Below are positions 1 to 30,317 of a stretch of 31,410 nt of DNA, piece after piece. The stretch's first letter is position 1. Every line of letters starts with the position of its first letter. The stretch is from a virus. The stretch is from positions 1 through 31,410 of the IMG/VR virus record IMGVR_UViG_3300025322_000113; one strand, given 5' to 3'. The translations under genes were made by a program, and so were the position numbers. The notes below the pieces were generated by a model. The model saw only the letters and a list, made by a program, of their open reading frames with translations, searched no databases and was not told the origin of the DNA.

Positions 1-206
1 TCTGTTTTTGCAATCGCAAGCTGGTCGTATTTATGAGAGAGAGCAACAACGGGGTTCCGAAGGTAGTTATCAATTTTTGCCCCCTTTGGCAAAACAACGT
101 CCCGGCTTCTATCTGGACTCGCTGTAGATATTTTTACCGTTAATACTCGGTCAGTGTCACTGGCCTTCGTTTCGGTTTGAAATACTTTGCGAACTAGGTT
201 ACTCAT
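1..206 (-). CDS. Prohead (capsid maturation) protease, N-terminal part
   Basis: ATG at 204-206 opens a frame that runs off the left edge, giving 68 visible residues. The translation contains STASPDRSRDVVLPKGAKID followed by NYLRNPVVALSHKYDQL. This is the N-terminal pattern of HK97-type (U35) prohead proteases: a beta-strand, then PDRxxDVV, then NPVVxxxH. His58 would be the catalytic histidine; the catalytic serine lies outside the window. The family cleaves scaffold or capsid N-terminal segments during head maturation. It follows the portal and virion genes, as in many siphoviruses, and major capsid should be next. No clear Shine-Dalgarno site is seen. Family assignment is from sequence pattern only. 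Confidence 0.82.
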   Translation of the reverse strand, partial: MSNLVRKVFQTETKASDTDRVLTVKISTASPDRSRDVVLPKGAKIDNYLRNPVVALSHKYDQLAIAKT

Positions 207-250
207 GGTGTATTAGTATTTTACTAGGGTGATTCATGTAATTTATACAT

Positions 251-2056: not shown

Positions 2057-3020
2057 ATAGGTAAAATCCTCCAGTAAAATCGTGGTTTGTATTCTTTTGG
2101 TTTTCAACATATAGCGTAAATATATCTCCCTCTACCGCTAGTATTTCAAGGCTTTGACTTACGTTCCGTTCTGTCCAAGCATTACGGGCTTGCCAAATCA
2201 CCGTGCCGTTTTTCTTCATCCTAAAAATAGCATCGGTTCCGCCCTCGCCCCAGACAAACTTTAGGAGTCCCCGTGTATTCGGAGTATTATCAGGAATCGT
2301 ATAGGTGCAGACCAGCGTTTCTGTAGCCGGAACTCCTACTACCGCACCGTATTTATGAACCGCCTTTTTACCAGTTAAGTTTTCCAAATCATCCAGGGCG
2401 ATGTTTAGGGTATCTACCGAGATATTTACTTCCAAATTCTGCAATTCGGTCAGGATGTCATTCAGTACTTCCATTATGTCGGCTAGTTCCTGCGCTGATA
2501 ATCCACTCGTTTGAATTATCTGGTTGAGGGCTGTGTAGAACGCCTTGCCGTCCGATAATCGCACCGCAATAGGTTTCGTGGGGTCTGTCGGCCCGACCAG
2601 TCTCACGTTCTGTAGCTGTTTCCGTATCGTATCTCGGATAGGTTCTGCCACCGTCTGTTTCAGGGTTTCCGCCAATTCGCTTACCTGTACCTCTTTTACC
2701 GGCTCTGGATATTCGGGAAAGTTGGATACCTTGACCTCTGTGACGGGCTTCGGCTGGTTTGTTACTTCTACCTTGTGTGTTTTATTTCCTAACTCCGACA
2801 AGAGTTTGCCAACCCTGTCAAACTTCTCCGATAGCCTTTCAGTTTGAGTACGGACTTCTTCGGTTGTAAGTCCTTGTTTTTCCAACAAACTTCGGTATGA
2901 GTCTAGTATGCTTTTCCCCTGCGTCTTTACCAAAAAGAATAATTCCAGAACTTTGTCCTCGCCTAAAACTTCGTTTAGTTCCGTAAGCAATTTTTTTTTA
3001 TCATTATTCGCTTTTTTCAT
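2046..3020 (-). CDS. Putative virion structural protein with coiled coil and beta domain, 324 aa
   Basis: The first ~80 residues are lysine-rich and helical. Residues 83-115 contain three short beta repeats of the form V-x-V-(T/S)-N/E (KVEVTNQP, EVKVSNFP, EVQVSE), as in fibrous virion proteins. A helical region (about 160-205) follows, then a C-terminal beta-sandwich of about 100 residues (LLKFVWGEGGTDAIFRMKKN to FYLYEF) resembling decoration or receptor-type domains. The gene overlaps the portal-MuF gene by 17 nt, so it is probably translated with it. A head fibre or head decoration role is plausible but unproven. Confidence 0.62.
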   Translation of the reverse strand: MKKANNDKKKLLTELNEVLGEDKVLELFFLVKTQGKSILDSYRSLLEKQGLTTEEVRTQTERLSEKFDRVGKLLSELGNKTHKVEVTNQPKPVTEVKVSNFPEYPEPVKEVQVSELAETLKQTVAEPIRDTIRKQLQNVRLVGPTDPTKPIAVRLSDGKAFYTALNQIIQTSGLSAQELADIMEVLNDILTELQNLEVNISVDTLNIALDDLENLTGKKAVHKYGAVVGVPATETLVCTYTIPDNTPNTRGLLKFVWGEGGTDAIFRMKKNGTVIWQARNAWTERNVSQSLEILAVEGDIFTLYVENQKNTNHDFTGGFYLYEF

Positions 3021-5229
3021 AGACCTGTTCCAAAGCCTTAGCCCTCAACTTTCGGAGGTCGCCTAACAACTCCCCCCGCTCGGCTTCCGCTTTGGCTTTG
3101 GCCTCTGTCAATAACTCCGCAGCTCTCTTCTGGGCGGACTCTAGTATACTAGAGCTTTCGTCCATCGCCTTTTGTTTTTCCTGGGTCAATTCGGCTTTAA
3201 TAGTTTCTGCTTGTTCCTGTAGTTTGGCCTCGGTTTCTTTTAACAGTCGCCCGTACACCTCGGACTTGGCGGTTGAAGGGATATACAGTACATCGCATCG
3301 GCAATTAGGATGAGCAGGTACGTCCTGGTCCCCAGAATTGAATGGCTGGTCTTTAGGTATGGCTCCCTCGTCTTCATTAGCTTGGCAAATCTCGCACGCA
3401 CCGGCGGTAAGTAACCACCTTTTGTCCTGTACGTTATCGTCTGACAATGCTACTTCATAACTTCCCTCGGCATAGGCGGCGGCAGTTTCGGTTCTGGCAA
3501 TTCTCTCGGCCATGAATTTATTACCAGCTTCAAAGAACTCGGATATTGAATTAGTTATCTCGCCGATCCCATCACCCTGAGCTACTCCCTCGGCTATTCT
3601 CCGGCGCATCTCTTCTGTTACCGTGGAGTTCACGGAAGTAACGGCCATTAAACCTCTTTCTCTTATAAAATCTACCGCCCTGGGATTATCTAGGCTAAAG
3701 CTAATCTGGGAAGCAAGCCTGGCAATCTGATTCTCTGCCGCCTTTTGTATTGCAGTCTTATGTGTGTCTTCTAGTTGCAGTTGCAAGTCTACAAACGCTG
3801 GCCCCAATGCTCCGAATACTAACCGGACAAGATCATCTGTCTTACCCTTGGTAACCGACTTCTGTTCTCCTAAAGCCGCCACGGCCAGAGCGTGCATCTC
3901 CGCATAAATCTTTTCATATAACGGCTGTTGTCGTTTTATCTCATTATTTACCCACCGGACTCGGCTCTCTACTGCCTTTAGACTTTCAATCGGAACGTCC
4001 TTTTTAATCGCCTTCATGCTCCGGCTTTCCTGCGTTTCACCAAGAGGAAGCATTAATGAACTGATAAATACTTGGTCGCCATTTTCAACCGGAGGTAAGT
4101 CCCTCTCTGCCCTAGCTTCATTCGGAGTCAGCCACCCACTTCTCAATCCACTCTCAATCGTTCTATTTTCAAGGTCAACGTCTTCCGGTACCGGATCTTC
4201 AAAATCAAAATATAGTTTTGTCGGATCTTCATTAAATAACGGGATGTAAAATTCATTCAGGGTATCAACGACAAACTGCATCCTCGGTTTAATAACCCTC
4301 TTAGCAAATACATATTCGCCCGCTTCGGCATTGGCTCGGTTTACATCCTCACTAATTCCTAAAATAGTCTTAGGAACCCTGAACATTGCCATAATTTCAT
4401 CTCGGCTGTATTTACGGCTCTCCAAGAACTCCATCTCCTTATTCGTCATCTGCATCGGCTTATAGGTAAGTCCCCCCTGTAATATCGCTAACTTATGTGA
4501 ATTATTTATGCCCGTGTAATTAGAGTCCCAGTTCGCCTTCAATCTCTGAAATTGATCCTCTGTTAATTCGTTCGGAGTTTCTAATACCGCAGAGGGGATG
4601 GCGGAATTAAAATAGAACTTCCTCTGCCACTGTCCGGCAAAGTCGTCAGCGTCAATCGCCATCGCCGCCGCCGCAACCGTTCCCATTCCCCGATAACGGT
4701 TGAGTGGATTGAATCTCTTAAAATGGACAATCTCGGAACTCTCCAACGGTACCATTGCCCCCTTCTCATTTTGATAAACATAGCCGGATACTACTTCTTG
4801 TGCGCTTTTAACTATATGCATCCGTGTCGGATCAAGTAGCCAAATCTCCCCCGGCTTCTGTGTTACCTTGCCCTTGGGAAGATACCAAAAAGTATTGCCC
4901 TCTAATTCCAAATAAGACTGGGTGCCAAGCATTAATTGGCTAGAGGTAGTGAAATTATTTACATTATTAATCAGTTTATAGGCAATATGTTCCGGTGCGG
5001 GTACGGCTTCGCCCTTGGCGTTTTTCCGAAACAACATCAGCTCCATATTGGCAATCTCTTCTGCTATGGAGTTGACGCAGGTATAAACCCAGCTTTTATA
5101 TGCAGCTAAATATGCACGCCCCTTCATCTCTGGGGGTTCATTCCCAGTCAAAAAAGAAAACACATTAGGATTGAACTCTTTTTTGAGTACGCTTGATACC
5201 CCACCGATCAACTTACTTAGAATGTTCAT
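3004..5229 (-). CDS. Portal protein fused to MuF-like head morphogenesis domain, 741 aa
   Basis: Residues about 35-400 match the HK97-type portal family in order and content: YKSWVYTCVNSIAEEIA, EIVHFKRFNPLNRYRGMGTV, RKYSRDEIMAMFRVPKTILG, and LTPNEARAERDLPPVENGD. The portal forms the dodecameric vertex through which DNA is packaged. Residues about 420-650 form a helical linker and a MuF/SPP1 gp7-type domain ending in RIARTETAAAYAEGS, CEICQ (Cys612, Cys615) and AHPNCRCD (His640, Cys643, Cys645). Residues 660-741 are a charged coiled coil. The two functions are normally encoded by adjacent genes. A late-type promoter lies directly upstream and the ATG is probably leaderless. Confidence 0.9.
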   Translation of the reverse strand: MNILSKLIGGVSSVLKKEFNPNVFSFLTGNEPPEMKGRAYLAAYKSWVYTCVNSIAEEIANMELMLFRKNAKGEAVPAPEHIAYKLINNVNNFTTSSQLMLGTQSYLELEGNTFWYLPKGKVTQKPGEIWLLDPTRMHIVKSAQEVVSGYVYQNEKGAMVPLESSEIVHFKRFNPLNRYRGMGTVAAAAMAIDADDFAGQWQRKFYFNSAIPSAVLETPNELTEDQFQRLKANWDSNYTGINNSHKLAILQGGLTYKPMQMTNKEMEFLESRKYSRDEIMAMFRVPKTILGISEDVNRANAEAGEYVFAKRVIKPRMQFVVDTLNEFYIPLFNEDPTKLYFDFEDPVPEDVDLENRTIESGLRSGWLTPNEARAERDLPPVENGDQVFISSLMLPLGETQESRSMKAIKKDVPIESLKAVESRVRWVNNEIKRQQPLYEKIYAEMHALAVAALGEQKSVTKGKTDDLVRLVFGALGPAFVDLQLQLEDTHKTAIQKAAENQIARLASQISFSLDNPRAVDFIRERGLMAVTSVNSTVTEEMRRRIAEGVAQGDGIGEITNSISEFFEAGNKFMAERIARTETAAAYAEGSYEVALSDDNVQDKRWLLTAGACEICQANEDEGAIPKDQPFNSGDQDVPAHPNCRCDVLYIPSTAKSEVYGRLLKETEAKLQEQAETIKAELTQEKQKAMDESSSILESAQKRAAELLTEAKAKAEAERGELLGDLRKLRAKALEQVYEKSE

Positions 5230-5235
5230 GTTTTT

Positions 5236-5265
5236 ATTTTATCCTGCCCGACCTCCATTTTTATA
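5236..5265 (-). promoter_or_regulatory. Phage late promoter upstream of portal gene
   Basis: On the minus strand TATAAAA (5265-5259) is followed by exactly 17 nt, then TAAAAT (5241-5236), then AAAAAC and the ATG of the portal gene. The same three-part arrangement occurs at 22389-22418 and 30049-30078. A transcript starting 6-7 nt after the hexamer would begin at the start codon. A GGAGG lies in the spacer but is too far from the ATG to be its ribosome-binding site. The rest of the 92-bp gap between terminase and portal holds nothing else I recognise. Confidence 0.65.
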
Positions 5266-5321
5266 CAAGAGAATAGTCGTAGCCCAATACTGCTTAATAC
5301 TATCCTGGCAAAGTATATCAG

Positions 5322-6662: not shown

Positions 6663-7092
6663 CGTTCTCTGGCTCTGGAAGTTGTTTAGCCTCCGCCTTT
6701 TTTAATCTGCGGTGGGCGATAATCTCCCTAAGTAAAATAATCCCCTCATCCCGTTCGGAGATATCTTTAGTCATCTCCAACCTTGAAAATTCCTCCTTCT
6801 CCATCGCCTGTAACCATTCAAGGGAGATTTTAGTATCACCTTCCATTAGTGCGGCTATGATATTCTTTCTCGCTTGTAAATTAGGCTTTGCTCTTTCCCT
6901 CTCCAATTTATTACGAAATTCCTCATCGCTGTTGTAATAAATAATATAAGTTGAATAAGCCACGTTGGCATAGAGACAGCTCTTGAAAAACGAGTACCCC
7001 ATTTGTAAATAGGGCTGTAAATCGGCAAAACATTTATCTAGGTCGGCTTTAGGTCTACCCGGTTTTCCTAATTCTTTTAACTTGTCACTCAT
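6652..7092 (-). CDS. terS: Terminase small subunit, 146 aa
   Basis: It starts MSDKLKELGKPGRPKADLDK. The GRPK basic segment followed by a helical region (residues 20-60) is like helix-turn-helix small terminases. A central helical stretch (KPNLQARKNIIAALMEGDTK, then SLEWLQAMEKEEF) is typical of the oligomerisation region of these proteins, which recognise phage DNA and load the large subunit. The gene overlaps terL by 11 nt and the upstream sigma-like gene by 8 nt. Identification rests on position plus sequence style. Confidence 0.85.
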   Translation of the reverse strand: MSDKLKELGKPGRPKADLDKCFADLQPYLQMGYSFFKSCLYANVAYSTYIIYYNSDEEFRNKLERERAKPNLQARKNIIAALMEGDTKISLEWLQAMEKEEFSRLEMTKDISERDEGIILLREIIAHRRLKKAEAKQLPEPENDDG

Positions 7093-7585
7093 TGTAGTAA
7101 TCTGCTAACCATTCTCGTAACTCAAAAAGGGTCGGTTTATAGTAGCATTTTAATACTGGGTGTAAATTCCACGAATCCAGCAATCTATCGGCTTTAATTT
7201 CTGGGTTGGCAAGAAAAAAAAGATATACAGCCGACCGTGACAAATCTTTACGGTTTCGTAGTATTTGTTTTCCACGCTGTGTTAACAGTTTTATCTTTTT
7301 AGCCTTCGCAAGTTTCTGTTTGATCCTAAATGAAATTTGATATACGGCCTGAATACCCACCCCCATCCTCTTTGCAATTTCCTCTCTTGTCCTACCATCT
7401 GCCAATCTCTTAAATACCCGTGCCTGTTTATCGGTTAAGACTTTAAGTACTGCCAGGACTTGTTCCTTTTCGTCTGCCCGCAGTAATTCTTCCTCTGGCC
7501 CTGGTCTAGTATCGGTTATTTGTAAACCGGCATCCAATAAATCATCTAATGAAACGTGGCGATATGAGAAGTCGGTATATCCCAT
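7085..7585 (-). CDS. Sigma-region-4-like helix-turn-helix regulator, 166 aa
   Basis: With the start at ATG 7583-7585 (MGYTDFSYRH), the gene begins just after the glycosyltransferase stop. An in-frame start at 7657 would overlap that gene by 62 nt. Residues about 50-95 read VLTDKQARVFKRLADGRTRE then EIAKRMGVGIQAVYQISF, the pattern of sigma-70 region 4 or ECF C-terminal domains, which bind the -35 element. The following ~70 residues (lysine-rich, then helical) are unfamiliar. No region 2 is visible, so it cannot be a complete sigma factor. It may be a late transcription regulator, or a terminase-linked factor as seen before terS in many phages. Confidence 0.7.
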   Translation of the reverse strand: MGYTDFSYRHVSLDDLLDAGLQITDTRPGPEEELLRADEKEQVLAVLKVLTDKQARVFKRLADGRTREEIAKRMGVGIQAVYQISFRIKQKLAKAKKIKLLTQRGKQILRNRKDLSRSAVYLFFLANPEIKADRLLDSWNLHPVLKCYYKPTLFELREWLADYYNE

Positions 7586-7595
7586 ATATTTATAA

Positions 7596-8471
7596 CTACT
7601 TTCCGAAGTCGTCAACAAATTTTTTAAGTACCCCGCTTCGGATGGGTTTTTCTGCAACTAAGTTTATACTAAATGATTGTTTGGTTATTTTCTCCCAATC
7701 TAAATCTTTTCTCCTAACTAACGGCGTATCAAATTTCTGCCAGTTATCTTTAATTGAATGTTGGGGTCTTTGGAATTTTCGTACCGTGGTTACAACCCCA
7801 GGCCAGTTTCGTTCAAGTAGTCGTGCCATTTTTAATCTACCGTCACCCTGATAAAGCTCGGCGGTATTTCCTCCCTTAATCGTCATAGTCATTCGCTTAT
7901 CTATGGTAAATGCATTCATTAGCACCGTACACCATTTATCAGACAGAACTTGGAGACATAGGTCTGTATCTTCGTTGTAGCGACCCCTCCAGCGATGTGG
8001 TAGGTCGTTTCTAATCAAAAGGCAAGAATATACATGGCAGTTGAGATTGAACGGTCTAGGCTGTTGTACAACAAAAAAAGTATAGTTTAGGCCAGCGATA
8101 GCAATATTCTCGTATCGGTCTACAAAGTCCTCCGTTACCGATAATGCTATCTTAGAATTACACGGCAGTCGCTTACCTTTAAATGTCCGCCTCATCCGAT
8201 CAATGTTGTCGTCCAGAATCCAATGTCTTTTGAATCCAGCCGCCTTAGCGTGTTCCCATACCCAGTTTCGGGCAGGAATGGAGCCTAATCCTAAGTTACT
8301 AAATGGCAGGGTATAAATTATCTCTTTCCCGAACTTCTTGGCATATAAGTCAAACTCCTGTGGCTCAACTACTAAATGGAATGGGGTATTGTCCTCAATT
8401 AGAAAGTCGGCTGTACCGTGATAATCATGTCTTCCTTTTGAGATAACATAGACGGGATATTTAGGTTGCAT
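7596..8471 (-). CDS. TET-associated-type glycosyltransferase (TAGT/GREB1-like), 291 aa
   Basis: The sequence has the layout of TET-associated glycosyltransferases of phages: PVYVISKGR at the N-terminus, PARNWVWEHA (66-75), ILDDNI with the acidic metal-binding pair (Asp87-Asp88), RYNEDTDLCLQ (164-174), then TMTIKGGN (195-202). This is a GT-A-like fold. In characterised relatives it transfers sugars to hydroxymethylated bases in phage DNA. The gene overlaps the ParB-like gene by 11 nt, and linkage to ParB-like proteins and terminase is known for this family. No TET/JBP dioxygenase or nucleotide hydroxymethylase is in the window, so the substrate is open. Confidence 0.68.
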   Translation of the reverse strand: MQPKYPVYVISKGRHDYHGTADFLIEDNTPFHLVVEPQEFDLYAKKFGKEIIYTLPFSNLGLGSIPARNWVWEHAKAAGFKRHWILDDNIDRMRRTFKGKRLPCNSKIALSVTEDFVDRYENIAIAGLNYTFFVVQQPRPFNLNCHVYSCLLIRNDLPHRWRGRYNEDTDLCLQVLSDKWCTVLMNAFTIDKRMTMTIKGGNTAELYQGDGRLKMARLLERNWPGVVTTVRKFQRPQHSIKDNWQKFDTPLVRRKDLDWEKITKQSFSINLVAEKPIRSGVLKKFVDDFGK

Positions 8472-10466: not shown

Positions 10467-11084
10467 TTATAAGTCGTCTGGAATTTGATCCGCAAGACTA
10501 GCTCCTGTCGTATCGCTGGGTATGTCTTCAACTACTGTATGGGACTCCTTGCCTTTGCCTACGGTTAGTCCTTTGGCTTTCTCCAAGGCCTCCTCCTGTT
10601 CTTCGGTTAGGTCAACTTTGTCTAGTCTTCTGGTAACGTAATAATTTCCGGTGACTTCGGTTCTCTCTACTCCCCAGGCACAGCCAAAGACATCAACCCC
10701 ATCGTCTTTATAACCAACGATTGTCCAGTGAACGCTAGGAGCGGTTTGGAATATGCCGGCGGTATTATTATTTAGATTAAGTATCGGGTAAAAGAACGTG
10801 GCTTGCGGTTTTAGTTTGTTAGCAACTTCCATTTGTTTTTTATCATCTCCGGCAACTTGTCTCATGGCTTGCCACTGGTCACAAAAAGTACATGGGGTTT
10901 TGTTATCGGGAGAGTTATATTTGTCACACAGCACGGATTCTTTGTCTCCTATCCAATGCTTAGTTTCATATTTAGGGGGAGCGGCGATTATAAATCTGAT
11001 CTTCTCGCCCTTCGCCGTAAGTTTAATATAAAGGCCTCCGGCTCTCGGTACATTCAGGTTTTTATCAAATCCCGCTTCTTGCAT
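10467..11084 (-). CDS. gp32-like single-stranded DNA-binding protein, 205 aa
   Basis: The protein combines an OB-like beta region (KIRFIIAAPPKYETKHWIG to ATFFYPILNLNNN) with a zinc site His43-x9-Cys53-x11-Cys65-x2-Cys68. The same order of ligands occurs in T4 gp32 (His-x12-Cys-x9-Cys-x2-Cys). A helical acidic segment follows (TEEQEEALEKAKG) and the protein ends in an acidic tail (SLADQIPDDL), like the protein-interaction tails of SSB and gp32. It would coat ssDNA in phage replication or recombination. A strong extended -10 promoter stands 11 nt before the ATG; no good Shine-Dalgarno is seen. Confidence 0.7.
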   Translation of the reverse strand: MQEAGFDKNLNVPRAGGLYIKLTAKGEKIRFIIAAPPKYETKHWIGDKESVLCDKYNSPDNKTPCTFCDQWQAMRQVAGDDKKQMEVANKLKPQATFFYPILNLNNNTAGIFQTAPSVHWTIVGYKDDGVDVFGCAWGVERTEVTGNYYVTRRLDKVDLTEEQEEALEKAKGLTVGKGKESHTVVEDIPSDTTGASLADQIPDDL

Positions 11085-11088
11085 ACTC

Positions 11089-11116
11089 TTAACAGATTAT
11101 ACCATAATTGTATAAA
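11089..11116 (+). promoter_or_regulatory. Sigma-70-like promoter on the plus strand, driving the structured RNA
   Basis: TTAACA (11089-11094), a 16-nt spacer and TATAAA (11111-11116) form a good consensus-type promoter pointing rightward, against all genes. The start would be near 11123, about 12 nt before the first base of the pseudoknot helix. The minus-strand -10 of the ssDNA-binding gene lies inside this spacer, so the two promoters cannot be occupied at once. Confidence 0.5.
11096..11104 (-). promoter_or_regulatory. Extended -10 promoter for the ssDNA-binding operon
   Basis: On the minus strand TGGTATAAT is an extended -10 with a perfect TATAAT (11101-11096). The expected start near 11089 leaves only about 5 nt before the ATG at 11084. 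No -35 resembling TTGACA is present at the right distance; the upstream DNA is an AT repeat. It should drive the ssDNA-binding, zinc-ribbon and MerR-like genes, and perhaps the genes beyond. Confidence 0.6.
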
Positions 11117-14066: not shown

Positions 14067-14542
14067 TGTTTTAGCCTCGCATTCAGAAACCCTACAATGT
14101 TAGACTTTGAGGCGACTTGCTTTAAGGCTTGGTACTCCTCTTGGATGGCCGCAGTATTCTTTGCAACCTTCTCCTCCACATAACCAGCAATGGCCTCTTG
14201 CAACCCGTCCCAGGCCTTTGTGAGGTTCGCTTCTGCGTCCCCGACAAATACCGTGGTGTGTTCCTCAATGTGGACTATCTCTGGTTTGTGATAACCATTA
14301 CCGCCGGATTCGTTTTTAGCCTTGATGAGTTCAACCGCCATCTCATATTCTGTTTTAGATTTTATCCTTTCAATTTTATCGCCAGTAAGATATCTCTGTA
14401 AATCTTTGATGGCATTCATTGCGGTGGTGTATGAGACTCGGAATTTCTTGGCTAAAGCTTTAGTCGTTCGTCCAGCAATAAAATCATCATAAAGTTCTAC
14501 TAAATCGTGTCGCTTTAGATAGTGTTTAGTTTTTCTTACCAT
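14063..14542 (-). CDS. Helix-turn-helix protein, 159 aa
   Basis: ATG 14540-14542 is chosen because AGAGGGGGTG lies 6 nt upstream; the in-frame GTG at 14551 lies inside that site. Residues about 10-45 (VELYDDFIAGRTTKALAKKF then RVSYTTAMNAIKDLQRYL) form a homeodomain- or resolvase-like helix-turn-helix. The rest is mostly charged helix, with a GGNGYHKPEIVHIEEHTTVF segment in the middle. It could be a transcription regulator of the early operon or a replication accessory factor. ATGA overlap with the nuclease gene downstream. Confidence 0.6.
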   Translation of the reverse strand: MVRKTKHYLKRHDLVELYDDFIAGRTTKALAKKFRVSYTTAMNAIKDLQRYLTGDKIERIKSKTEYEMAVELIKAKNESGGNGYHKPEIVHIEEHTTVFVGDAEANLTKAWDGLQEAIAGYVEEKVAKNTAAIQEEYQALKQVASKSNIVGFLNARLKQ

Positions 14543-14762
14543 GTAAAACACCCCCTCTCGGGGCAGGATGGTAATACTGTAATATCCGGAGTGTAAACCG
14601 TACCAGAGACATCATTTCAATTTTGTTTAAGCTCAATGATTCTGGGTAGACATCCGGCTCTCCATCGGGAGCATTGGTTTTTATCCAGCGAAGAATACCC
14701 AGCTTTTGGCCGTCCCAGCCAAACTCAACATGTTTAAGCTTCTTCTGTGCGGATGAAATCAT
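14526..14762 (-). CDS. Hypothetical protein, 78 aa
   Basis: The gene overlaps the RecB-like nuclease gene by 29 nt and the HTH gene by 17 nt. The product starts MISSAQKKLKHVEFGWDGQK, has LGILRWIKTNAPDGEPDVYP, and a helical MMSLVRFTLRILQYYH segment. Its end contains the strong ribosome-binding site of the next gene. No family is recognised and no Shine-Dalgarno is seen for it, so it is probably translated by coupling. Confidence 0.5.
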   Translation of the reverse strand: MISSAQKKLKHVEFGWDGQKLGILRWIKTNAPDGEPDVYPESLSLNKIEMMSLVRFTLRILQYYHPAPRGGVLHGKKN

Positions 14763-15585
14763 TGTGGTAGAGCAGGTCTTTATAGCGTGAGTAACTAACT
14801 CTCCAATTTATTTTGTCGCCGTCTGTAAATGGTTCTAGCGGAGGAACTTCGTTTTTTTGCCAGTACTCGGAGAATTTACGCACATCATCGTCCCATAGTT
14901 TTTCTAGTACACTAGACTTTCTGATAACTACCTCCTCAATCCAGCCAGTATCTTTTGCTATATAAACCAGGTGTCCCTCATTCAATCCTAGTCCCTTTAA
15001 GTAGGTATAAAGTTGCAGTTTATGGTGAGGGTAGGCGTTGGATAGACCTTGTGTACCCTTGTGATACTTAAATGCGTAACTATTGATAGACTTCACCTCA
15101 AAAATAGTCTTAGGCAATCCCTGCGGGTATTTGATCTTCCAACTTAGTATTAGGTTTTTCAATGCCGTTTTCTTATCCTTAGCCTTGTGTTCTCCATCTC
15201 CCAGCTTGGCTATTACTTCGTCAATACTTCCAATTACCTTGTCCCAGTCTTTAACTTCCAAATAAATATCCGGCCGTCCAACTACAGGCAGACACCCCTC
15301 CTGTTTAACCTCAACCTTGTCCTGTGAGTCAAAAGCTATCTGGCAAGTTTTTAACATCCCCGTCAATCCTTCTTCAATCTGTCTGCCTAAAAAGAATGTC
15401 ATTAAACCCTTACCGTCTGCGGGGTTGGAATACGGCGTACCTTTCATCTGGTGCCAGCGGTCAATATATGGCTTGCCCAAATCAGAGGCCCAGATAATCT
15501 CACGAGGTTGCGGTACGGTTTCGGCGGTATGTCCAATTAAGTCTGATACTAAATCTTTTATATTCCAATTATCCGTATCGTTCAT
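14734..15585 (-). CDS. PD-(D/E)XK exonuclease, RecB/Cas4-like, 283 aa
   Basis: The motifs of the RecB-type nuclease fold are present in order: ASDLGKPYIDRW (33-44), FFLGRQIEEGL with Glu71, VVGRPDIYLE with Asp106, IFEVKS with Glu163 and Lys165, and HKLQLYTYL with the QxxxY pair Gln191/Tyr195. The iron-sulphur cysteines of Cas4 and AddB are not evident. Such phage enzymes process DNA ends for recombination. It is the first gene of an early run, and its TATAAT lies exactly 6 nt before the ATG, so the mRNA should be leaderless. Confidence 0.8.
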   Translation of the reverse strand: MNDTDNWNIKDLVSDLIGHTAETVPQPREIIWASDLGKPYIDRWHQMKGTPYSNPADGKGLMTFFLGRQIEEGLTGMLKTCQIAFDSQDKVEVKQEGCLPVVGRPDIYLEVKDWDKVIGSIDEVIAKLGDGEHKAKDKKTALKNLILSWKIKYPQGLPKTIFEVKSINSYAFKYHKGTQGLSNAYPHHKLQLYTYLKGLGLNEGHLVYIAKDTGWIEEVVIRKSSVLEKLWDDDVRKFSEYWQKNEVPPLEPFTDGDKINWRVSYSRYKDLLYHNDFIRTEEA

Positions 15586-15591
15586 AGCTTC

Positions 15592-15597
15592 ATTATA
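15592..15597 (-). promoter_or_regulatory. -10 element for leaderless RecB-like nuclease gene
   Basis: A perfect TATAAT on the minus strand (15597-15592) is followed by GAAGCT and ATG. The preceding GTAG is shared with the promoter at 16287-16292. A TTGACA lies at 15627-15622 but the spacing (24 nt) is too long; TATATA stands at the normal -35 position. The 57-bp gap between genes holds nothing else. Confidence 0.5.
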
Positions 15598-15642
15598 CTA
15601 CAATTAATCATTTATATATAGTGTCAATGCGCCTTATACGTT

Positions 15643-15864
15643 TCATATAAGCCATCGGTGGATGAAACTATTAAAATTAATAGGATAGGGTCGTTTGCCA
15701 AATTTTTTAGCGATCTGTTTCTGTCGCCGGTTCAACTCATCTATTGCCGGCTGTGCCTTATCTAGTGCTTCCTGCCTAGTAATACTCCCCCTGCCCCACC
15801 AGTCTCTTAACGTCTTACAAAATACCACTAAGTCACGGGTACTACTTTTCGTTATATCGTCCAC
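15643..15864 (-). CDS. Hypothetical protein, 73 aa
   Basis: The start is GTG (15862-15864) with GGAGG about 8 nt upstream, so the non-ATG start is well supported. The product begins MDDITKSSTRDLVVFCKTLR, is helical (RQEALDKAQPAIDELNRRQK), and ends in a basic, aromatic tail (KRPYPINFNSFIHRWLI). It overlaps the gene upstream by 23 nt. Not recognised. Confidence 0.55.
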   Translation of the reverse strand: MDDITKSSTRDLVVFCKTLRDWWGRGSITRQEALDKAQPAIDELNRRQKQIAKKFGKRPYPINFNSFIHRWLI

Positions 15865-16033
15865 GGATGTCCTCCATTAAAGAATTAAGTTGCTCAAATG
15901 TATATTTATGGGCCGCAAACATTTTATCTATCAACTGTCTCATCTCTTTAATCGTCTGGCTCTGTGCGGCAATAACTATTTCCTGTTTCTTATAGGCATC
16001 GTTTAATATCGCTATTTGTTGCTGGTCGGTCAT
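15842..16033 (-). CDS. Small helical protein, 63 aa
   Basis: ATG 16031-16033 follows the upstream stop after one base (TAATATG), the same junction as in the tail genes. In-frame starts at 16057, 16069 and 16105 would give longer forms overlapping that gene. The chosen product begins MTDQQQIAILNDAYKKQEIV and is a continuous helix with heptad spacing (SQTIKEMRQLIDKMFAAHKY), probably a coiled coil. Function unknown. Confidence 0.5.
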   Translation of the reverse strand: MTDQQQIAILNDAYKKQEIVIAAQSQTIKEMRQLIDKMFAAHKYTFEQLNSLMEDIRGRYNEK

Positions 16034-16034
16034 A

Positions 16035-16280
16035 TTAGGTATGTTTTTGATAGGCATTACTTTTAACATCTTCAACGTAGGTATCTCCGTATTCCCACGA
16101 GCCATAAGTCAGAGGACTTTTAACAGCACAAAACCACCGAGCATAAGGTTTATTATCGTCAGCTTGCCATTTTTTAAGTACCCGCCATTCCCATCCAGCC
16201 AGGTTTACCCAAATCTCATAAGGTTCCCATACCTTTCGTTCCTTATTACATAGGTTCTTGCTTCCAGTTGCAGTATTCAT
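16035..16280 (-). CDS. Hypothetical protein, 81 aa
   Basis: It starts MNTATGSKNLCNKERKVWEP and is unusually rich in Trp and Tyr (EIWVNLAGWEWRVLKKWQAD, then YARWFCAVKSPLTYGSWEYG). This pattern fits small phage proteins with one beta-sheet, but I cannot name it. The promoter directly upstream is the best in the window and places the transcript start at the ATG, so this gene heads an early leaderless operon. Confidence 0.58.
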   Translation of the reverse strand: MNTATGSKNLCNKERKVWEPYEIWVNLAGWEWRVLKKWQADDNKPYARWFCAVKSPLTYGSWEYGDTYVEDVKSNAYQKHT

Positions 16281-16286
16281 ACCCCT

Positions 16287-16314
16287 ATTATACTACTATT
16301 TATATATATGTCCA
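16287..16314 (-). promoter_or_regulatory. Strong sigma-70-type promoter, leaderless
   Basis: On the minus strand TGGACA (16314-16309), 16 nt, and TATAAT (16292-16287) match the housekeeping consensus at 11 of 12 positions. AGGGGT and then ATG follow, so transcription should start at or beside the start codon at 16280. It probably drives the early block down to about 15643, and possibly beyond with the promoter at 15592. Confidence 0.65.
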
Positions 16315-16337
16315 GTTTGGGTTCATTTACCAGGCTC

Positions 16338-16979
16338 TTATACCCATTCTTTACCATTCCACCGTTTTTTCTTTTTCTTCTTGTCGGCTGGATGTTCAGG
16401 GAACGGATCGTCTGGAAAGTCTTGGTGGTATTGCTGTCTGGCTCGGTCGTTAAAATCTTGCATCGCCGCATCATAAGAATCATCCCAGTACTTCTCCCCC
16501 CGTTTTGTTTTTGCTCTTCTGTCGTCATGGAGGGTTACAAAAGGGTTTGGTATTTTTCCCTGCTTAAATAAACCATAATTCTGCGCCGCCTCCTGTGCAT
16601 CGGGATGGACTACAAAATCATCTTCTGTCGCCCCTAGCCCCGTATGTTCATATCTGGATACGGGAACTACATTGTCCTCCGTGTTATATGGTGTTTTAGT
16701 TACCCGTGTCTGCCATCCAACGGGCCGGATATGATTCAAGTCGGGTTTAACCGCAGGCACATGAAACCAGCCCCGCTCTTCGGTATATCTAGGGATAGCG
16801 TCTGGGATTGTTCCCTTCGGCATACCCAATACAGCATGGGCAAAATGTGCAAACACCCGATAAAACCACGCCTTCTGTTTTTCTGATAAATCAACTCGGG
16901 GTTCTTCTGGTGGGTTATCGGGGTCAAAGTCCGGATCAAAAGTCCGTTTCCAAGAATGTCCGTTATCTTGTTCTGTCAC
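16338..16979 (-). CDS. HNH-like protein, 213 aa
   Basis: The start is GTG (16977-16979), since an in-frame stop lies directly upstream. Residues 82-112 read NHIRPVGW (82-89), DNVVPVSRYEH (102-112), the spacing expected of an HNH/beta-beta-alpha metal fold (His83, Asn103, His112), though the usual CxxC zinc pairs are absent. FVVHPDAQEA follows. The N-terminus is acidic and Pro-rich; the C-terminus ends in a lysine run (residues 200-206) and RWNGKEWV. It may be a nicking or homing-type nuclease, or a degenerate relative. Confidence 0.5.
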   Translation of the reverse strand: MTEQDNGHSWKRTFDPDFDPDNPPEEPRVDLSEKQKAWFYRVFAHFAHAVLGMPKGTIPDAIPRYTEERGWFHVPAVKPDLNHIRPVGWQTRVTKTPYNTEDNVVPVSRYEHTGLGATEDDFVVHPDAQEAAQNYGLFKQGKIPNPFVTLHDDRRAKTKRGEKYWDDSYDAAMQDFNDRARQQYHQDFPDDPFPEHPADKKKKKKRWNGKEWV

Positions 16980-17028
16980 TCATTTTGTGTAACATATTCT
17001 GTAATAGTCTGGCAACATCCAAACTAAA

Positions 17029-17057
17029 TTGATTTTTAGGTACAAACCGGATAACAT
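17029..17057 (+). promoter_or_regulatory. Candidate plus-strand promoter
   Basis: TTGATT (17029-17034), exactly 17 nt, and TAACAT (17052-17057) form a moderate promoter on the plus strand, 4 of 6 matches in each hexamer. Transcription would start near 17064, just before the 71-nt three-way junction. Confidence 0.35.
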
Positions 17058-17063
17058 TGTATC

Positions 17064-17145: not shown

Positions 17146-17146
17146 C

Positions 17147-17303: not shown

Positions 17304-17340
17304 ACTACCCCTGTTAGAAGAGAAGTAAGTGTAAATATAA

Positions 17341-18039: not shown

Positions 18040-18045
18040 ACACGA

Positions 18046-18924: not shown

Positions 18925-19740
18925 TTAGCGACTCAAGGCCTCTTTGACCTTGCGGTATTTCACCCACCACCAGCCGCTTCCGTTCATAACTGTATCTATT
19001 TCATAGAGTTTTGCTTTAACGGTATCTAGTTCCTTCTTGATATTTTCACACGGGTCAACCGGCGGAGTCGGTGGAACTGGAGGCGGTGTAGGACTGGGTG
19101 GTGGGGCAGGTGGTGGAGTTGCAACTACCGGACTAGGACTAGGATAGCCGCTCCAATTGTCTTGTATGATTCTAGTTCTAAGATTATCCCCAGCAACTTT
19201 CCAGTTGCTACCAGGGCAGGCAGTAGCGGTAGCCCCCGGAAACTTCGGATGTTGGTATGTGTCTTGGTGTCCGATAACACAGTCCCATCCCGTTAGTTGC
19301 GGAAAGGCCTCTAACCCCAATAAGAAGGTGCAGAGTAAATACGCCGAATGGACTTGGTTTGCAGTCGGAAGTTCTTTTGTAAAATCGCCCACAAAACAAA
19401 TGCCTATCTCGTGGTCGTTATTATTGGCAACATTACTTCCCCCGTGGCTTAAATCCCCGACATAAGCGACCGTACCGTCAGAGCAAATGATAAGTCTGTA
19501 CCCAATTCCGCCCCAACCCCTTCCGTCAACGTGTAGGTGGGCGATCTTGTCACACTCCGCTCGCCAATTACCGTCGCTCTTGGCGGTCTGTGCAGTAACG
19601 GAGTGGTGCATGACCACGAAATCAACCTTGTCAGCAACGAGTACCGGCCCCCACGAAAAGCTATCGCCATAAATCGCCTGTCGGTAGTCCTGCCATTTCC
19701 CGATCGCAGAGAGTGTCGGTATCTGTAATTCAACCGCCAT
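18925..19740 (-). CDS. Endolysin, N-acetylmuramoyl-L-alanine amidase (PGRP/amidase_2), 271 aa
   Basis: The catalytic domain (about 35-195) shows the T7-lysozyme-type zinc site: His45 in FVVMHHSVT, His158 in CVIGHQDTY, and Cys175 in TATACPGSNW. GGIGYRLIICSDGTVAYVGD (77-96) is the typical core, with Tyr81 near the active site. It cleaves the bond between muramic acid and L-alanine in peptidoglycan. A Pro-rich linker (199-229) leads to a short helical C-terminal segment (CENIKKELDTVKAKLYEIDT) of unknown binding role. No signal peptide is seen, so release depends on a holin. The -10 TATAAT stands 6 nt before ATG. Confidence 0.9.
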   Translation of the reverse strand: MAVELQIPTLSAIGKWQDYRQAIYGDSFSWGPVLVADKVDFVVMHHSVTAQTAKSDGNWRAECDKIAHLHVDGRGWGGIGYRLIICSDGTVAYVGDLSHGGSNVANNNDHEIGICFVGDFTKELPTANQVHSAYLLCTFLLGLEAFPQLTGWDCVIGHQDTYQHPKFPGATATACPGSNWKVAGDNLRTRIIQDNWSGYPSPSPVVATPPPAPPPSPTPPPVPPTPPVDPCENIKKELDTVKAKLYEIDTVMNGSGWWWVKYRKVKEALSR

Positions 19741-19746
19741 GTTTAT

Positions 19747-19775
19747 ATTATATGCTGGGCAATTAATGGGTTATA
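19747..19775 (-). promoter_or_regulatory. Late-type promoter upstream of endolysin
   Basis: TATAACC (19775-19769), 16 nt, TATAAT (19752-19747), ATAAAC, ATG. This matches the late pattern TATAAAA-N17-TAAAAT-AAAARC-ATG with small changes and a spacer one base shorter. It would allow lysis genes to be transcribed separately from the tail genes. Confidence 0.5.
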
Positions 19776-19786
19776 CATTTTTGTTT

Positions 19787-21372: not shown

Positions 21373-21562
21373 TTTGCTCCTTCTCTATTATCTGGGAGAC
21401 ACGGTAGAAAGGTTTATCAATTAATTGCCTGGCTCTTTCCAAGGCCTTTTCTGCCGTTTCATCTATCAGTTCCAATGAACAGACATCATTCAACGATCCA
21501 CTGTCACTACGTTCTACATAGGCCTGAATTACGAATACTGTGATTTTGTTTTTGTTAGACAT
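21356..21562 (-). CDS. Small protein between fibre genes, 68 aa
   Basis: ATG 21560-21562 (MSNKNKITVFVIQAYVERSD) overlaps the upstream stop by only 8 nt and is preferred over a start at 21622. The product has a strand, an acidic middle and a helix (TAEKALERARQLIDKPFYRV). Its end overlaps the start of the collar-fibre gene by 17 nt and contains that gene's Shine-Dalgarno. It may be a fibre chaperone, as small genes beside fibre genes often are, but nothing proves this. Confidence 0.52.
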   Translation of the reverse strand: MSNKNKITVFVIQAYVERSDSGSLNDVCSLELIDETAEKALERARQLIDKPFYRVSQIIEKEQNGDTH

Positions 21563-22382
21563 TTTGACCCACGACAAAGCCTTCTGTGTTGGTAGTATCC
21601 AGACAGTTGAATACCAACTCATCAGCTTTATTTGCCGTGAGCGTCAATGTGGGCGCAATCCCATCGGGCCAACTAAGGCTTCCCCACCAAGTAACTGTGC
21701 GGCTTCCAACGCCATCTTGTTTCACCCTAACTACAAAGGTCTTGCCACTGGTTAAATTGGAAAGAGTAAAGGTGCGGTTTCCCGCTATCGTCACTCGGAA
21801 CTTACGACCAAGATTAAGGTCTACATTTATGGTTGCGCCGTCTGTTAAATCAACCCATCCCTCGGTGTAAATGTATGTGTAAAACTGTGGTCTGGTATCG
21901 GTAATGTTTGCATCCAGAATTAGCGTAGCCCCAGAGGCAACAGTAACATTGGCAAGCCGTATAAATGGATTGGACGCACCGATAGCGGTTGAAATATCAC
22001 CGTTAGTAGGAGCAACTGGGGATGCGGCAGGAGTGCCGACTACATCAAACAATTTCACCACGTTAGAAGAATCTGCGTTGGCGGTTTCGGAAAGGTCTAC
22101 ATACAAAACCACTGCGTCAATTCTTGGGTTTCCGGATGAGTTGGCGGCAATCGCTAAAGTCTCATCGGCTGTCGCACGGATAGGATAGGTGCTTGCTCCT
22201 CGGATATAGGCCTTCCCCATTCCCACTAAAACCGTCAGATCGGGGACGGCCTGTTCTACTACTTCAAAATCTGCTCCCATAGCATTGTAGACACCCGATT
22301 GATTCACCAAATCGGTTAGTGTCTGCAAGACCGAAGCCTCTGGGTGGGCCGTACCTCCGCTTCTTAGTGTATATATCGCCAT
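21555..22382 (-). CDS. Tail appendage/fibre protein, 275 aa
   Basis: The N-terminal part (MAIYTLRSGGTAHPEASVLQ to about residue 75) is like baseplate or upper-fibre proteins with a VVEQAVPDLTVLVGMGKAYI stretch. The C-terminal ~100 residues carry the repeat-beta pattern RKFRVTIAGNRTFTLSNLTS, then GKTFVVRVKQDGVGSRTVTW, then WPDGIAPTLTLTANKADEL. That domain ends many phage tail fibres. It is headed by one of the three perfect late promoters. A virion role in host attachment is likely. Confidence 0.72.
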   Translation of the reverse strand: MAIYTLRSGGTAHPEASVLQTLTDLVNQSGVYNAMGADFEVVEQAVPDLTVLVGMGKAYIRGASTYPIRATADETLAIAANSSGNPRIDAVVLYVDLSETANADSSNVVKLFDVVGTPAASPVAPTNGDISTAIGASNPFIRLANVTVASGATLILDANITDTRPQFYTYIYTEGWVDLTDGATINVDLNLGRKFRVTIAGNRTFTLSNLTSGKTFVVRVKQDGVGSRTVTWWGSLSWPDGIAPTLTLTANKADELVFNCLDTTNTEGFVVGQNV

Positions 22383-22388
22383 GTTTTT

Positions 22389-22418
22389 ATTTTAACGGAC
22401 GGGCGGCATATTTTTATA
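22389..22418 (-). promoter_or_regulatory. Phage late promoter upstream of tail appendage gene
   Basis: TATAAAA (22418-22412), 17 nt, TAAAAT (22394-22389), AAAAAC, ATG on the minus strand. Apart from the spacer it is identical to the portal promoter at 5236-5265. The 39-bp gap between genes is fully used by it. Confidence 0.65.
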
Positions 22419-22421
22419 TGC

Positions 22422-22643
22422 TCATGCCTCATCTACTTTAATTTTACCTCTAACTAAATTGACATGGGTATTAATTTCCGACAGTTTATCTTTTAGTAAG
22501 TCTTTCTCCTTGTTCTTTTGTACCCCACGCAATAATCCCGTCATCTGTATTTTCAGCCAATCTTTGACCGTGTAACCCAAGCCATTTATGACCGTCTGTA
22601 CTTCTTCTGGAATCTCAATCTTGAACTTTGTCTTAACAGCCAT
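22422..22643 (-). CDS. Small helical protein, 73 aa
   Basis: It starts MAVKTKFKIEIPEEVQTVIN with a short strand, then GYTVKDWLKIQMTGLLRGVQ and a lysine-rich helix. The form resembles small tail-associated or antitoxin-like helical proteins, without a clear family. Its ATG is preceded by TAAAAT-AAAAAC, the -10 part of the late pattern. It separates two groups of tail appendage genes. Confidence 0.52.
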   Translation of the reverse strand: MAVKTKFKIEIPEEVQTVINGLGYTVKDWLKIQMTGLLRGVQKNKEKDLLKDKLSEINTHVNLVRGKIKVDEA

Positions 22644-22649
22644 GTTTTT

Positions 22650-22655
22650 ATTTTA
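22650..22655 (-). promoter_or_regulatory. Late -10 element without clear -35
   Basis: TAAAAT (22655-22650) then AAAAAC and ATG repeats the late promoter's downstream half exactly. At the -35 position the sequence is AATAGTT, a poor match to TATAAAA. Confidence 0.4.
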
Positions 22656-27434: not shown

Positions 27435-28267
27435 AGGCCAAGGTAGGTATCCCGGTAGGAGATTGTGCATTTCCCATACGGGTTACTGCTACCGGCCCCT
27501 AGATGGATGGTATTGTTCCCCAATGCCAGCGTCCAAAAATCCCCCGTGGCATATTGTCTTGCCACATTGTTTGTCGGGAGGAACCTGACAGTGCGAAGGT
27601 AGGTATCAACCTCAATTACATCGCTTGCTGAAGCAAGGTTATAAGTAATGTTTAATGTTTTGCCGGTGGTTACGTTCTGCAAGGACGGATTCAATAGTGG
27701 CCCCTGAAATCGGAATATCGGAAATGCCCTGTAGTTTCCCCCTACGGCCAGTACGACTTCGTTAGTCCCCCCGACAGACATATCTAGCGGAATGGGCATG
27801 GGTACGGGTGTCCCTCCACCGGAAAAAATGAAGACATCCATCTGTGCTAGCGTCTGGCTCTCTAGGAACGGCCTCTCGGTTTCAAACTCAACCAGCATTG
27901 TTGCCGTAAAGGGTTCATTGATAGAAACATCGCCGGACAGATCAACCCCCTTAACCGTAGCTTGCAAATCCACTCCATTTGCCTTATCAATTTCAAGCAA
28001 GGCCGATCCACTAGAAACTACTCGGCCAATAACTTCTGCAAAGTCTTCCCGTTGATCGGCAATATCGGTAGAGTCATCACCCACGACAACCCATTCGGTT
28101 CCGAATTTGTTAGCCACGAATTTTACATCGGAAGATTTGCGACCAAAATAAGCACCCTTCTTACTGCTACTCCAATCTACTTCTGGGAAATTGAGGTTGC
28201 GGATACCAGTACAAAATCGCTTTGTATTAGTAAGGGCTTCGCCAGCTAATCTAATTTGTGTGATCAT
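27431..28267 (-). CDS. Distal tail protein (Dit-like), 278 aa
   Basis: The gene sits between tape measure and hub, with ATGA junctions on both sides. It has an N-terminal beta domain with WSSSKKGAYFGRKSSDVKFV, a middle helix (DIADQREDFAEVIG) and a C-terminal galectin-like beta part (FRFQGPLLNPSLQNVTTGKT, RTVRFLPTNNVARQYATGD). This is the usual plan of Dit proteins, which form the hexameric ring joining tail tube to tip. Residues near the end (YGKCTISYRDTYLGL) resemble the last strands of that fold. Confidence 0.78.
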   Translation of the reverse strand: MITQIRLAGEALTNTKRFCTGIRNLNFPEVDWSSSKKGAYFGRKSSDVKFVANKFGTEWVVVGDDSTDIADQREDFAEVIGRVVSSGSALLEIDKANGVDLQATVKGVDLSGDVSINEPFTATMLVEFETERPFLESQTLAQMDVFIFSGGGTPVPMPIPLDMSVGGTNEVVLAVGGNYRAFPIFRFQGPLLNPSLQNVTTGKTLNITYNLASASDVIEVDTYLRTVRFLPTNNVARQYATGDFWTLALGNNTIHLGAGSSNPYGKCTISYRDTYLGL

Positions 28268-30042
28268 CTTGTATTGCGCAAAATCCAGGCAAGTTTATAA
28301 CCAAGTAAATCAAAGTCCGGCTCGCCTGATAGCGTTGGATTAATTGTAATGGGCTGGTTAAATGTTTGCTGTACTCCCGTGGGGACAGGTGATCTGCCTG
28401 CCTGCATATCTTTGGATAATACAAACTCCCCCTCGTGTAAAAGTACCAGCCCAGTCTGTGGAACGAACCCACCGAATTGCCGACTGGTAAAACCCTTGAC
28501 CCCCGCCTTAACTCCCTCGGCGGCTTTGCTAACAGCACCACTGATAGCATCCTTAATGCTGTTCCACACTCCAATTACTTTGTCGCCAAAATCTTTGATC
28601 CCCTGCCACATCTCGTCAATTTTGGTTTGGATGGCCTTTTGCATTTTAATAAATATCTCCTCGGCTATTCCAGGAAGGGTACTTAGAAACGCTTGTACCT
28701 TCCCAGGCCAAGAGGAAACATTAGTAGTAATCCATGTCCAGAGCTGTGTAAGCAATGCAATTGCTTTTGTTACTAAGTCGGTGAAAATTAAAGCAACCTT
28801 GATCGGAAGTACCGCCATCCACATTATAAAGTTAGCAATCATCTGCGGTATAGCAACGGAAATCCAACCGATAAAATACCCGATAGAGAACGGAAGTGTG
28901 GACAGCCAAAACTCGCTCCATGCGGTACTCACGCTTGTAATAAAACCGGCAATCCCGGCAATAATGTCTGTAATAAAAGTTGTAATTGCGCCCCACATCA
29001 GTTGTACGGATAAAACGATATTGTTTGCCGCCTCTTGGAACATAAACACGATACCCTCCCAATGATGGGCAATAACAACTGCGGCTCCCACTATTACCCC
29101 CACTAACAGAGCAATGCCAGCCACAATCAACGTGACCGTACCGGCAGCGGCTATTAATGCACCAGCCAGCAATACTCCGAAGACAACGGCTAGCGTACTA
29201 ACGGCAATTACAATTGCGGCAACCACCTCCTGGTGTGACTGTAGCCAAGTATTAAACTCGGCTAGTCTAGCGGAGACATTATCAATTCCCCCGACTAAAT
29301 TAAGGAGAGTTTCTACAAACCCCTTACCCAGAGTTTCCTGTATATCGTTAACTGTATTTTTCAAAACGTCTAACTGTCCACCAAATGTTTTTGCAGACTG
29401 GGAGGCAGTACCACTGAATCTATCGCTAAGTTCATCCAGTATGAATCTTTGGGCTTCTGCGGTTTTTCCCACATCCACCATGCCCTTAATCATTTTTTCC
29501 TGATCGTCTGTAAATATAATCCCCTGTCGCCTTAACCTTCCTAGTGCCTCGGCCGGATATGATAAAGCCAATCCCACAGCCTGTGCGGCGGCTCCTAAAT
29601 CTAATTGCATAGCGGCGGCCATATCAACAGTAGCTTGGGTTGCCTCCTGAATTGTCTCCGTTCCTACTCCCAGTCGGAGCATTAAAGTAGAGGCGGAAAC
29701 GATTGCCTCATCAGAAAATCTGGACATAGACTGCAATGACGATGCAAACTCCAATACCCGCTCCTGTACACCCGTTATGTTATCCCCCGTATTTGCAAGA
29801 TTATTTAATGCCGCATTTAATCCAAATACCGCATCCTCGCTCTCCATAAAAGCCTGTACGCTAGTTACCGCAAAAGCAGTAGTAGCGGCCAGTCCTGCGG
29901 CCAAAGCTATTTTGGCATTTTTTAACTGCCCTACCGTGTTCTTGCCAAAACTACTGACGCTATCGGAAACTTGGTTAACAACTTTTGAGGCGTTATCCCT
30001 CGCTTCTAATAAAATCTCCAATGTCCTGCTATCGCTTGCCAT
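28264..30042 (-). CDS. Tape measure protein, 592 aa
   Basis: N-terminal segments (TLEILLEARDNASKVVNQVS, LAATTAFAVTSVQAFMESED, then SRFSDEAIVSASTLMLRLGV and KTFGGQLDVLKNTVNDIQET) are standard for phage tape measure proteins. Two hydrophobic regions (about 270-325 and 330-435) follow, then a helical stretch and a C-terminal part ending FDLLGYKLAWILRNTR. At about 1.5 angstrom per residue the tail would be near 90 nm, so this is a short-tailed siphovirus. It is preceded by a perfect late promoter that overlaps the stop of the chaperone extension. Confidence 0.9.
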   Translation of the reverse strand: MASDSRTLEILLEARDNASKVVNQVSDSVSSFGKNTVGQLKNAKIALAAGLAATTAFAVTSVQAFMESEDAVFGLNAALNNLANTGDNITGVQERVLEFASSLQSMSRFSDEAIVSASTLMLRLGVGTETIQEATQATVDMAAAMQLDLGAAAQAVGLALSYPAEALGRLRRQGIIFTDDQEKMIKGMVDVGKTAEAQRFILDELSDRFSGTASQSAKTFGGQLDVLKNTVNDIQETLGKGFVETLLNLVGGIDNVSARLAEFNTWLQSHQEVVAAIVIAVSTLAVVFGVLLAGALIAAAGTVTLIVAGIALLVGVIVGAAVVIAHHWEGIVFMFQEAANNIVLSVQLMWGAITTFITDIIAGIAGFITSVSTAWSEFWLSTLPFSIGYFIGWISVAIPQMIANFIMWMAVLPIKVALIFTDLVTKAIALLTQLWTWITTNVSSWPGKVQAFLSTLPGIAEEIFIKMQKAIQTKIDEMWQGIKDFGDKVIGVWNSIKDAISGAVSKAAEGVKAGVKGFTSRQFGGFVPQTGLVLLHEGEFVLSKDMQAGRSPVPTGVQQTFNQPITINPTLSGEPDFDLLGYKLAWILRNTR

Positions 30043-30048
30043 GCTTTT

Positions 30049-30078
30049 ATTTTATCGCTTAACCCTGGGAATTTTATA
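30049..30078 (-). promoter_or_regulatory. Phage late promoter upstream of tape measure gene
   Basis: TATAAAA (30078-30072), 17 nt, TAAAAT (30054-30049), AAAAGC, ATG. It lies in the 3' end of the chaperone extension frame, so it is embedded in coding sequence and still keeps all positions of the pattern. Confidence 0.65.
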
Positions 30079-30317
30079 CTTGGAAATGTCCGGAGCCTTA
30101 TTTTTCTGCTTACTTCTTTCCGATATAGCCATCTCTTTGCCAAGTTTATACATCTTCATCGTCTGCACCCACCAGCTCGGCTGTTTCATTAGTTCAGTAT
30201 AGGTAATCCCAAACCCATCACAAAGCGATATTGTCACAGTTTGTTTGTCCCCCAGAAGTTCGGGGTCATTGTGGTAGAAACTCTTAAATGCCTGAATCTT
30301 GACCAACTCTAATTTTT
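30052..30317 (-). CDS. Tail assembly chaperone extension (gpT-like), reached by -1 frameshift
   Basis: This frame lies -1 relative to the preceding chaperone gene. It has no ATG of its own; the only candidate start is a TTG at 30304-30306. The short gene ends ...CCA AAA AAA AAT TAG, and a -1 slip on CCCAAAA or AAAAAAA would fuse the frames to K-L-E-L-V-K-I-Q-A-F, giving a protein of about 195 aa. The extension (SFYHNDPELLGDKQTVTISL, then GITYTELMKQPSWWVQTMKM) is helical and basic at its end, as in lambda gpT-like parts, which bind the tape measure. Confidence 0.75.

Follow-up and report, generated by a model that had tools for sequence, protein, structure and literature searches.

Start-abutting late promoters and probable leaderless expression of structural and lysis genes in a phage most likely infecting Patescibacteria

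Where does transcription begin, and with what does the ribosome engage, when a promoter hexamer ends only 6 nt before a start codon? The DNA examined here, referred to as the window, is a viral contig of 31,410 nt. The initial annotation placed TATAAT or TAAAAT 6 nt before the ATG at 5229, 15585, 16280, 19740, 22382, 22643 and 30042, with an identical geometry leaving no room for a Shine-Dalgarno (SD) sequence, and proposed leaderless expression. All seven hexamers are found at these positions, and no SD match of at least 5 nt lies within 20 nt of any of these starts. All lie on the minus strand (as do the window features below unless marked otherwise), at gene starts on the coding strand, and the reading frames behind them are open over 73–741 codons.

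In AT-rich upstream regions TAWAAT could arise near an ATG by chance. The looser pattern TANNNT-N6-ATG, which had been suggested for surveys, is indeed not enriched in the window (20 observed, 20 expected), so that the signal resides in the full −10 consensus. TAWAAT-N6-ATG (TAWAATNNNNNNATG) matches seven times over both strands against a mean of 1.01 in shuffled windows, none of 100 of which reached seven. Relative to the 51 called starts, TAWAAT is found at distance 6 from seven of them and at every other distance between 0 and 44 nt from one at most (binomial P ~4e-11, with the local upstream frequency as background). Furthermore, such sites are kept in related phages. This conservation rules out chance, to which we attach a negligible probability.

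The seven sites share TAWAAT-N6-ATG but fall into two promoter classes, a division which had escaped notice. Four of them (30042, 22382, 19740 and 5229) carry a second box, RTATAA, 18–19 nt upstream of TAWAAT, which the initial annotation had also missed. The late promoter at 5227..5266 comprises GTATAA (5266-5261), a 19-nt spacer, TAAAAT (5241-5236), AAAAAC and ATG 5229, and leads the portal protein gene (3004..5229; PHROG portal, E=2e-116). The same arrangement is seen at 30040..30079 (GTATAA, N19, TAAAAT, AAAAGC, ATG 30042) before the tape measure gene (28264..30042; PHROG tape measure, E=3e-20), and at 22380..22419 (ATATAA, N19, TAAAAT, AAAAAC, ATG 22382) before a virion structural or tail fibre-like gene with orthologues in 10 related phages (21555..22382). 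With a spacer of 18, the promoter at 19738..19776 (GTATAA within AAAAATGTATAA, TATAAT, ATAAAC, ATG 19740) leads an N-acetylmuramoyl-L-alanine amidase/endolysin gene (18925..19740; PHROG amidase, E=2e-16). The window also contains a fifth pair, absent from the initial annotation, at 204..248 (GTATAA 248-243, N19, TAAAAT 223-218), 11 nt before ATG 206; the predicted +1 at 211 would leave a 5-nt leader without SD, and the reading frame runs off the contig end. No RTATAA-TAWAAT pair is present on the plus strand of the window. A matrix trained on 47 sites from other phages ranked four of the window's five late sites among its top seven matches on both strands, with the site at 204..248 as the second highest match in the window. 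The hexamer before the 73-codon frame at 22643 (TAAAATAAAAACATGGC, 22641..22655) shares the −10 and the discriminator; no RTATAA box occurs at the expected position, and its late-matrix score is −11.8.

The upstream regions of 15585 and 16280 differ from those of the RTATAA sites. At 15583..15597, TATAAT-N6-ATG precedes a Cas4-like exonuclease gene (14734-15585) and has TATATATAAAT upstream. The site before the 81-codon frame at 16280 (16278..16315), which scores −23.7 against the late-promoter matrix, carries TGGACA 16 nt upstream of TATAAT, a hexamer resembling a host sigma-70 −35. An extended −10, TGGTATAAT, lies 11 nt before ATG 11084 (11082..11105) and is a short-leader candidate. The context TATATATA is common to the 11084, 15585 and 16280 sites. 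The early-region sites at 15585 and 16280 are probably served by promoters of the host type, placed in the start-abutting geometry.

Other features of the window deserve mention. Immediately before the reading frame at 17748, a terminator-like inverted repeat (CCCCAA...TTGGGG) followed by a T run occupies 17749-17790. On the plus strand, in a gene-poor stretch at 17200-17270, GTTATAAACAATT occurs twice within ~40 bp and is possibly a replication or attachment site. The protein encoded at 11510-12523 has a hydrophobic stretch near its N terminus and is rich in Pro/Thr in the middle; no family match was obtained for it. A TET-associated glycosyltransferase (7596-8471; PF20691, E=2.5e-47) suggests hypermodified bases in the phage DNA. 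A ParB_N-domain protein (8461-9507), which strongly matches the phage DNA methyltransferase and ParB-like families of PHROG, is kept in nine related phages.

Is the two-box arrangement a property of this phage or of its clade? Exact-motif scans of viral contigs (TAAAATAAAAACATGGC or TATAA-N-TAWAAT...ATG) returned mostly unrelated phages and were replaced by protein-based relatives. A tape-measure search found no relatives; terminase alignment provided many related viral contigs, with 241 terminase relatives in all, and the motif set comprised 20 phage records including the window. In these records, [GA]TATAA and TANAAT are paired 51 times at spacing 19 and 1–5 times at any other spacing in the range 10–29, sites of one phage being non-independent observations. 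The resulting consensus reads A-tract-T-RTATAA-S-N18-TANAAT-N6-purine. In one relative (G017), TGTATAA accompanies five exact N6 sites. In a GC-rich phage (G018) GATAAC replaces the box with the same spacing (five sites, one spacing only). Three others (G005, G006 and G007) combine an A-tract box with sites like TCCATAAAATATTTRTATG, found at five genes in the case of G007. Among distant terminase relatives (below ~53% identity) the motif occurs at chance level and is not shared.

A purine occupies the seventh position after TANAAT in 45 of 48 clade sites, and in 37 of 40 when start-codon cases are set aside (P ~1e-5 against a 62% purine background). This preference places the +1 at that base, and a 6-nt gap then sets the +1 on the A of the ATG. 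Nothing is conserved 15–25 nt upstream of RTATAA across the clade sites, which makes RTATAA the −35-like element and TANAAT the −10. The alternative is that RTATAA is the real −10, with a leader of ~25–30 nt in which TAAAATAAAAAC acts as an A-rich translation-enhancing sequence, Kozak-like in the manner of Bacteroidetes. TATAAA is a plausible −10 and AAAATAAAAAC, in which A stands at −3, looks like the A-rich sequences found before starts; A-rich Kozak-like pre-start sequences are active in Flavobacterium (PMC6847099). Against this, no partner box accompanies RTATAA at −35 distance, and TATAA was rejected as a −10 for that reason. Moreover, the interval between RTATAA and TANAAT is fixed at exactly 19 nt, yet anything between 6 and 29 nt separates TANAAT from the ATG; TANAAT is thus part of the promoter rather than of the start. 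The bases between TANAAT and ATG vary among phages (AAAAAC, ATTTRT, GGCGGTAGT), no conserved A-rich bases at a fixed distance from the ATG were found among the clade sites, and the purine preference sits at the seventh base after TANAAT. We consider this alternative improbable.

With TANAAT as the −10, a second box at constant spacing and a purine +1, the late sites have the features of sigma-70-type promoters. Their spacer of 19 (18 counted from TATAAR) exceeds the usual 17, which counts against our overall reading, and no TTGACA-like −35 lies ~17 bp upstream at the late sites; RTATAA stands at 19 instead.

The gap between hexamer and start codon is less uniform in the clade than in the window. 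TANAAT lies 6–11 nt before the ATG in nearly all portal orthologues, which share 31–48% identity. The gap is 6 in the window phage (11 at 206), mostly 6 in G017 and usually 8–9 elsewhere, with 6–11 common. Several relatives have gaps of 12–29 nt at some genes, and there leaders are present. Thus the exact 6-nt distance holds in this phage and some relatives but not clade-wide.

The following sequence of events is proposed. A phage-specific late promoter, A-tract-T-RTATAA-N19-TANAAT, would drive the structural and lysis genes. Its −10 hexamer ends 6 nt upstream of the ATG, and transcription would start on the seventh base beyond it. This base coincides with the A of the ATG or, with a longer gap, lies 2–5 nt upstream. 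The mRNA would then have no leader, or one too short to contain an SD, and the ribosome would have to initiate on a 5′-terminal AUG. The motif, its spacing, conservation and place at orthologous genes, the purine at the predicted +1 and the lack of an SD can be read from the DNA itself; we infer that the seventh base also serves as +1 in the cell. Leaderless or nearly leaderless expression of the late genes is the best reading and well supported; the fixed-spacing partner box, the conservation at orthologous genes of divergent phages and the purine +1 mark TAWAAT as a genuine promoter −10. The earlier proposal is retained with three corrections, which concern the host, the promoter classes and the gap in relatives: expression is predicted to be leaderless in the window phage and to range from leaderless to a very short leader across the clade. 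Overall, that the window is part of a Patescibacteria siphophage whose start-abutting late promoters yield leaderless or near-leaderless structural and lysis mRNAs is the best explanation, with a probability of roughly 0.8.

The host assignment comes from the terminase. Aligned against species genomes, it gave a single match, in a Candidatus Daviesbacteria genome, with 63% identity. On the matching contig, chromosomal genes (secA-, lysS- and serS-like; translations judged by eye) enclose a serine recombinase together with the terminase, which indicates a prophage remnant. The remnant (L362 and L363, on contig C40 of G001, ~14980-23352) encodes a large serine recombinase, a primase-like protein and the terminase; no portal was found in it. 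The host link therefore stems from a chromosomal remnant whose terminase is 63% identical, and not from the window phage itself. Most likely the phage infects Patescibacteria, and the terminase points to the Daviesbacteria lineage. The initial annotation had pointed to Actinobacteria or Deinococcus-Thermus, a hint we abandon because, among cellular genomes, it is this Daviesbacteria chromosome that carries the closest terminase.

A survey of the probable host for the same geometry, which had been recommended, proved informative. In 538 kb of the Daviesbacteria genome, restricted to reading frames of at least 80 aa, the distance from TATAAT to ATG peaks sharply at 6 (21 cases) and 7 (10 cases) against 0–4 elsewhere. 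A TTGACA-N17-TANAAT peak is present as well; the RTATAA-N19 motif of the phage gives no peak in this genome. Among 59 Patescibacteria genomes, N6 exceeds N10 in 41 and falls below it in 15 (Wilcoxon P=9e-5). The enrichment is 1.45-fold overall, 2–4-fold in about a quarter of the genomes and absent in others; leaderless genes are thus not uniform in Patescibacteria. The host lineage employs the start-abutting −10 geometry for its own genes too.

Start-abutting genes are not the only kind in the window. An SD match of at least 5 nt occurs in 9 of the 41 other genes, the best being GGAGGTGA at 18464. The remaining genes mostly have no clear SD and overlap or adjoin the upstream gene. The 16S rRNAs of the host's family, used here as no 16S was detected in the host genome assembly, retain the anti-SD CACCTCCTTTCT. 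Two initiation modes side by side, as first suggested, agree with these observations. Given the TATAAT-N6/7-ATG peak and the 16S anti-SD, SD-led and −10-led starts probably coexist in both host and phage.

Which protein might recognize RTATAA? The gene at 7085..7657 encodes a protein that resembles sigma-70 region 4 and has a helical domain at its C terminus. It matches a PHROG sigma factor family with E=8e-11; the match to TIGR02937 (E=2e-8) is below the family cut-off. The similarity is confined to residues 31–130 and to the C-terminal part of sigma models. The PHROG match covers the region 4 helix-turn-helix, and no match to sigma region 2, the −10 reader, was obtained. The structural model has a mean pLDDT of 72 and is good over residues 70–120 and 131–190. 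A fold search with it placed region-4 structures on top, with weak E-values (at least 0.06). Homologues are present in 12 of 12 motif-carrying phages and also in the variant-box phages, the gene across one clade being again a non-independent observation; more distant terminase relatives, in which the motif is at chance level, have no homologue. This co-occurrence is a clade-wide association and not proof. In several relatives the counterpart is split into two reading frames (L376:2285-2889; L387:11362-11867; L383:4719-5048 and 7667-7864), and in G013 the two halves are ~2.6 kb apart.

We regard the 7085-7657 protein as a candidate late factor and putative −35 reader of RTATAA, with the host sigma region 2 reading TANAAT. 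Alternatively, the late sites abut their start codons in the same way, but RTATAA is bound by a separate activator acting with an ordinary host sigma-70 holoenzyme, a possibility that concerns the identity of the factor and not leaderless expression. The host uses the same −10-to-ATG geometry, a missing RTATAA-N19 peak in its genome is expected of a phage activator site as well, and a second helix-turn-helix protein (14063-14551) has a weak late transcriptional activator match (phrog_532, E=0.002). However, RTATAA occupies −37 to −32, the usual place of region 4 binding, the protein co-occurring with the promoter throughout the clade resembles region 4, and the box is altered (GATAAC, A-tract) where the 7085-7657 homologue has diverged. 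We consider a separate activator less likely than not. Tentatively, at somewhat less than even odds, we propose a split-sigma switch in this Patescibacteria phage family: a phage region-4-like protein, one chain here and two separate reading frames in several relatives, would replace host −35 reading while host −10 reading is kept. Late promoters abutting start codons would then give a leaderless late proteome, and box (RTATAA, GATAAC or A-tract) and protein would have changed together.

The tiny Patescibacteria, of which hardly any have been brought into culture, account for a large part of bacterial diversity. The present analysis yields a phage late promoter consensus and a candidate factor for this group, together with evidence that some of these hosts themselves carry many −10-led genes. 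The promoter signature can help tie orphan phage contigs to such hosts.

Leaderless transcripts are found for lambda cI, for the Thermus phages phiYS40 and P23-45 and for phiKZ. As in these systems, a phage mRNA is expected to start at or beside the AUG, here as a prediction from sequence alone; the host phylum, the promoter and the candidate factor are different. Two-part sigma or region-4-like late regulators include B. subtilis SigO/RsoA, T4 gp55/gp33 and ArpU. Like them, the partial-sigma protein of the window could redirect RNA polymerase to new promoters; unlike them, it matched only generic sigma-70 region 4 and helix-turn-helix models (NCBIfam, PHROGs) and none of these families by name.

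Phage transcripts have been described in general terms as often leaderless (PMC5312081). TA-led, leaderless genes are known in Actinobacteria and Deinococcus-Thermus (Zheng et al. 2011, PMC3160421), from a survey of 953 bacterial genomes in which the listed groups do not comprise Patescibacteria and phages were outside the scope. In the literature searched, we found no report of −10-led leaderless genes in Patescibacteria; one elsewhere is possible. The window genes resemble TA-led genes in having a −10-like signal ~10 bp before the start, no SD, and SD-led genes alongside; in contrast, their promoter is of a late class specific to the phage, which has a −35-like box of its own. The principle is already known; the late promoter, its box and the candidate factor appear to be new.
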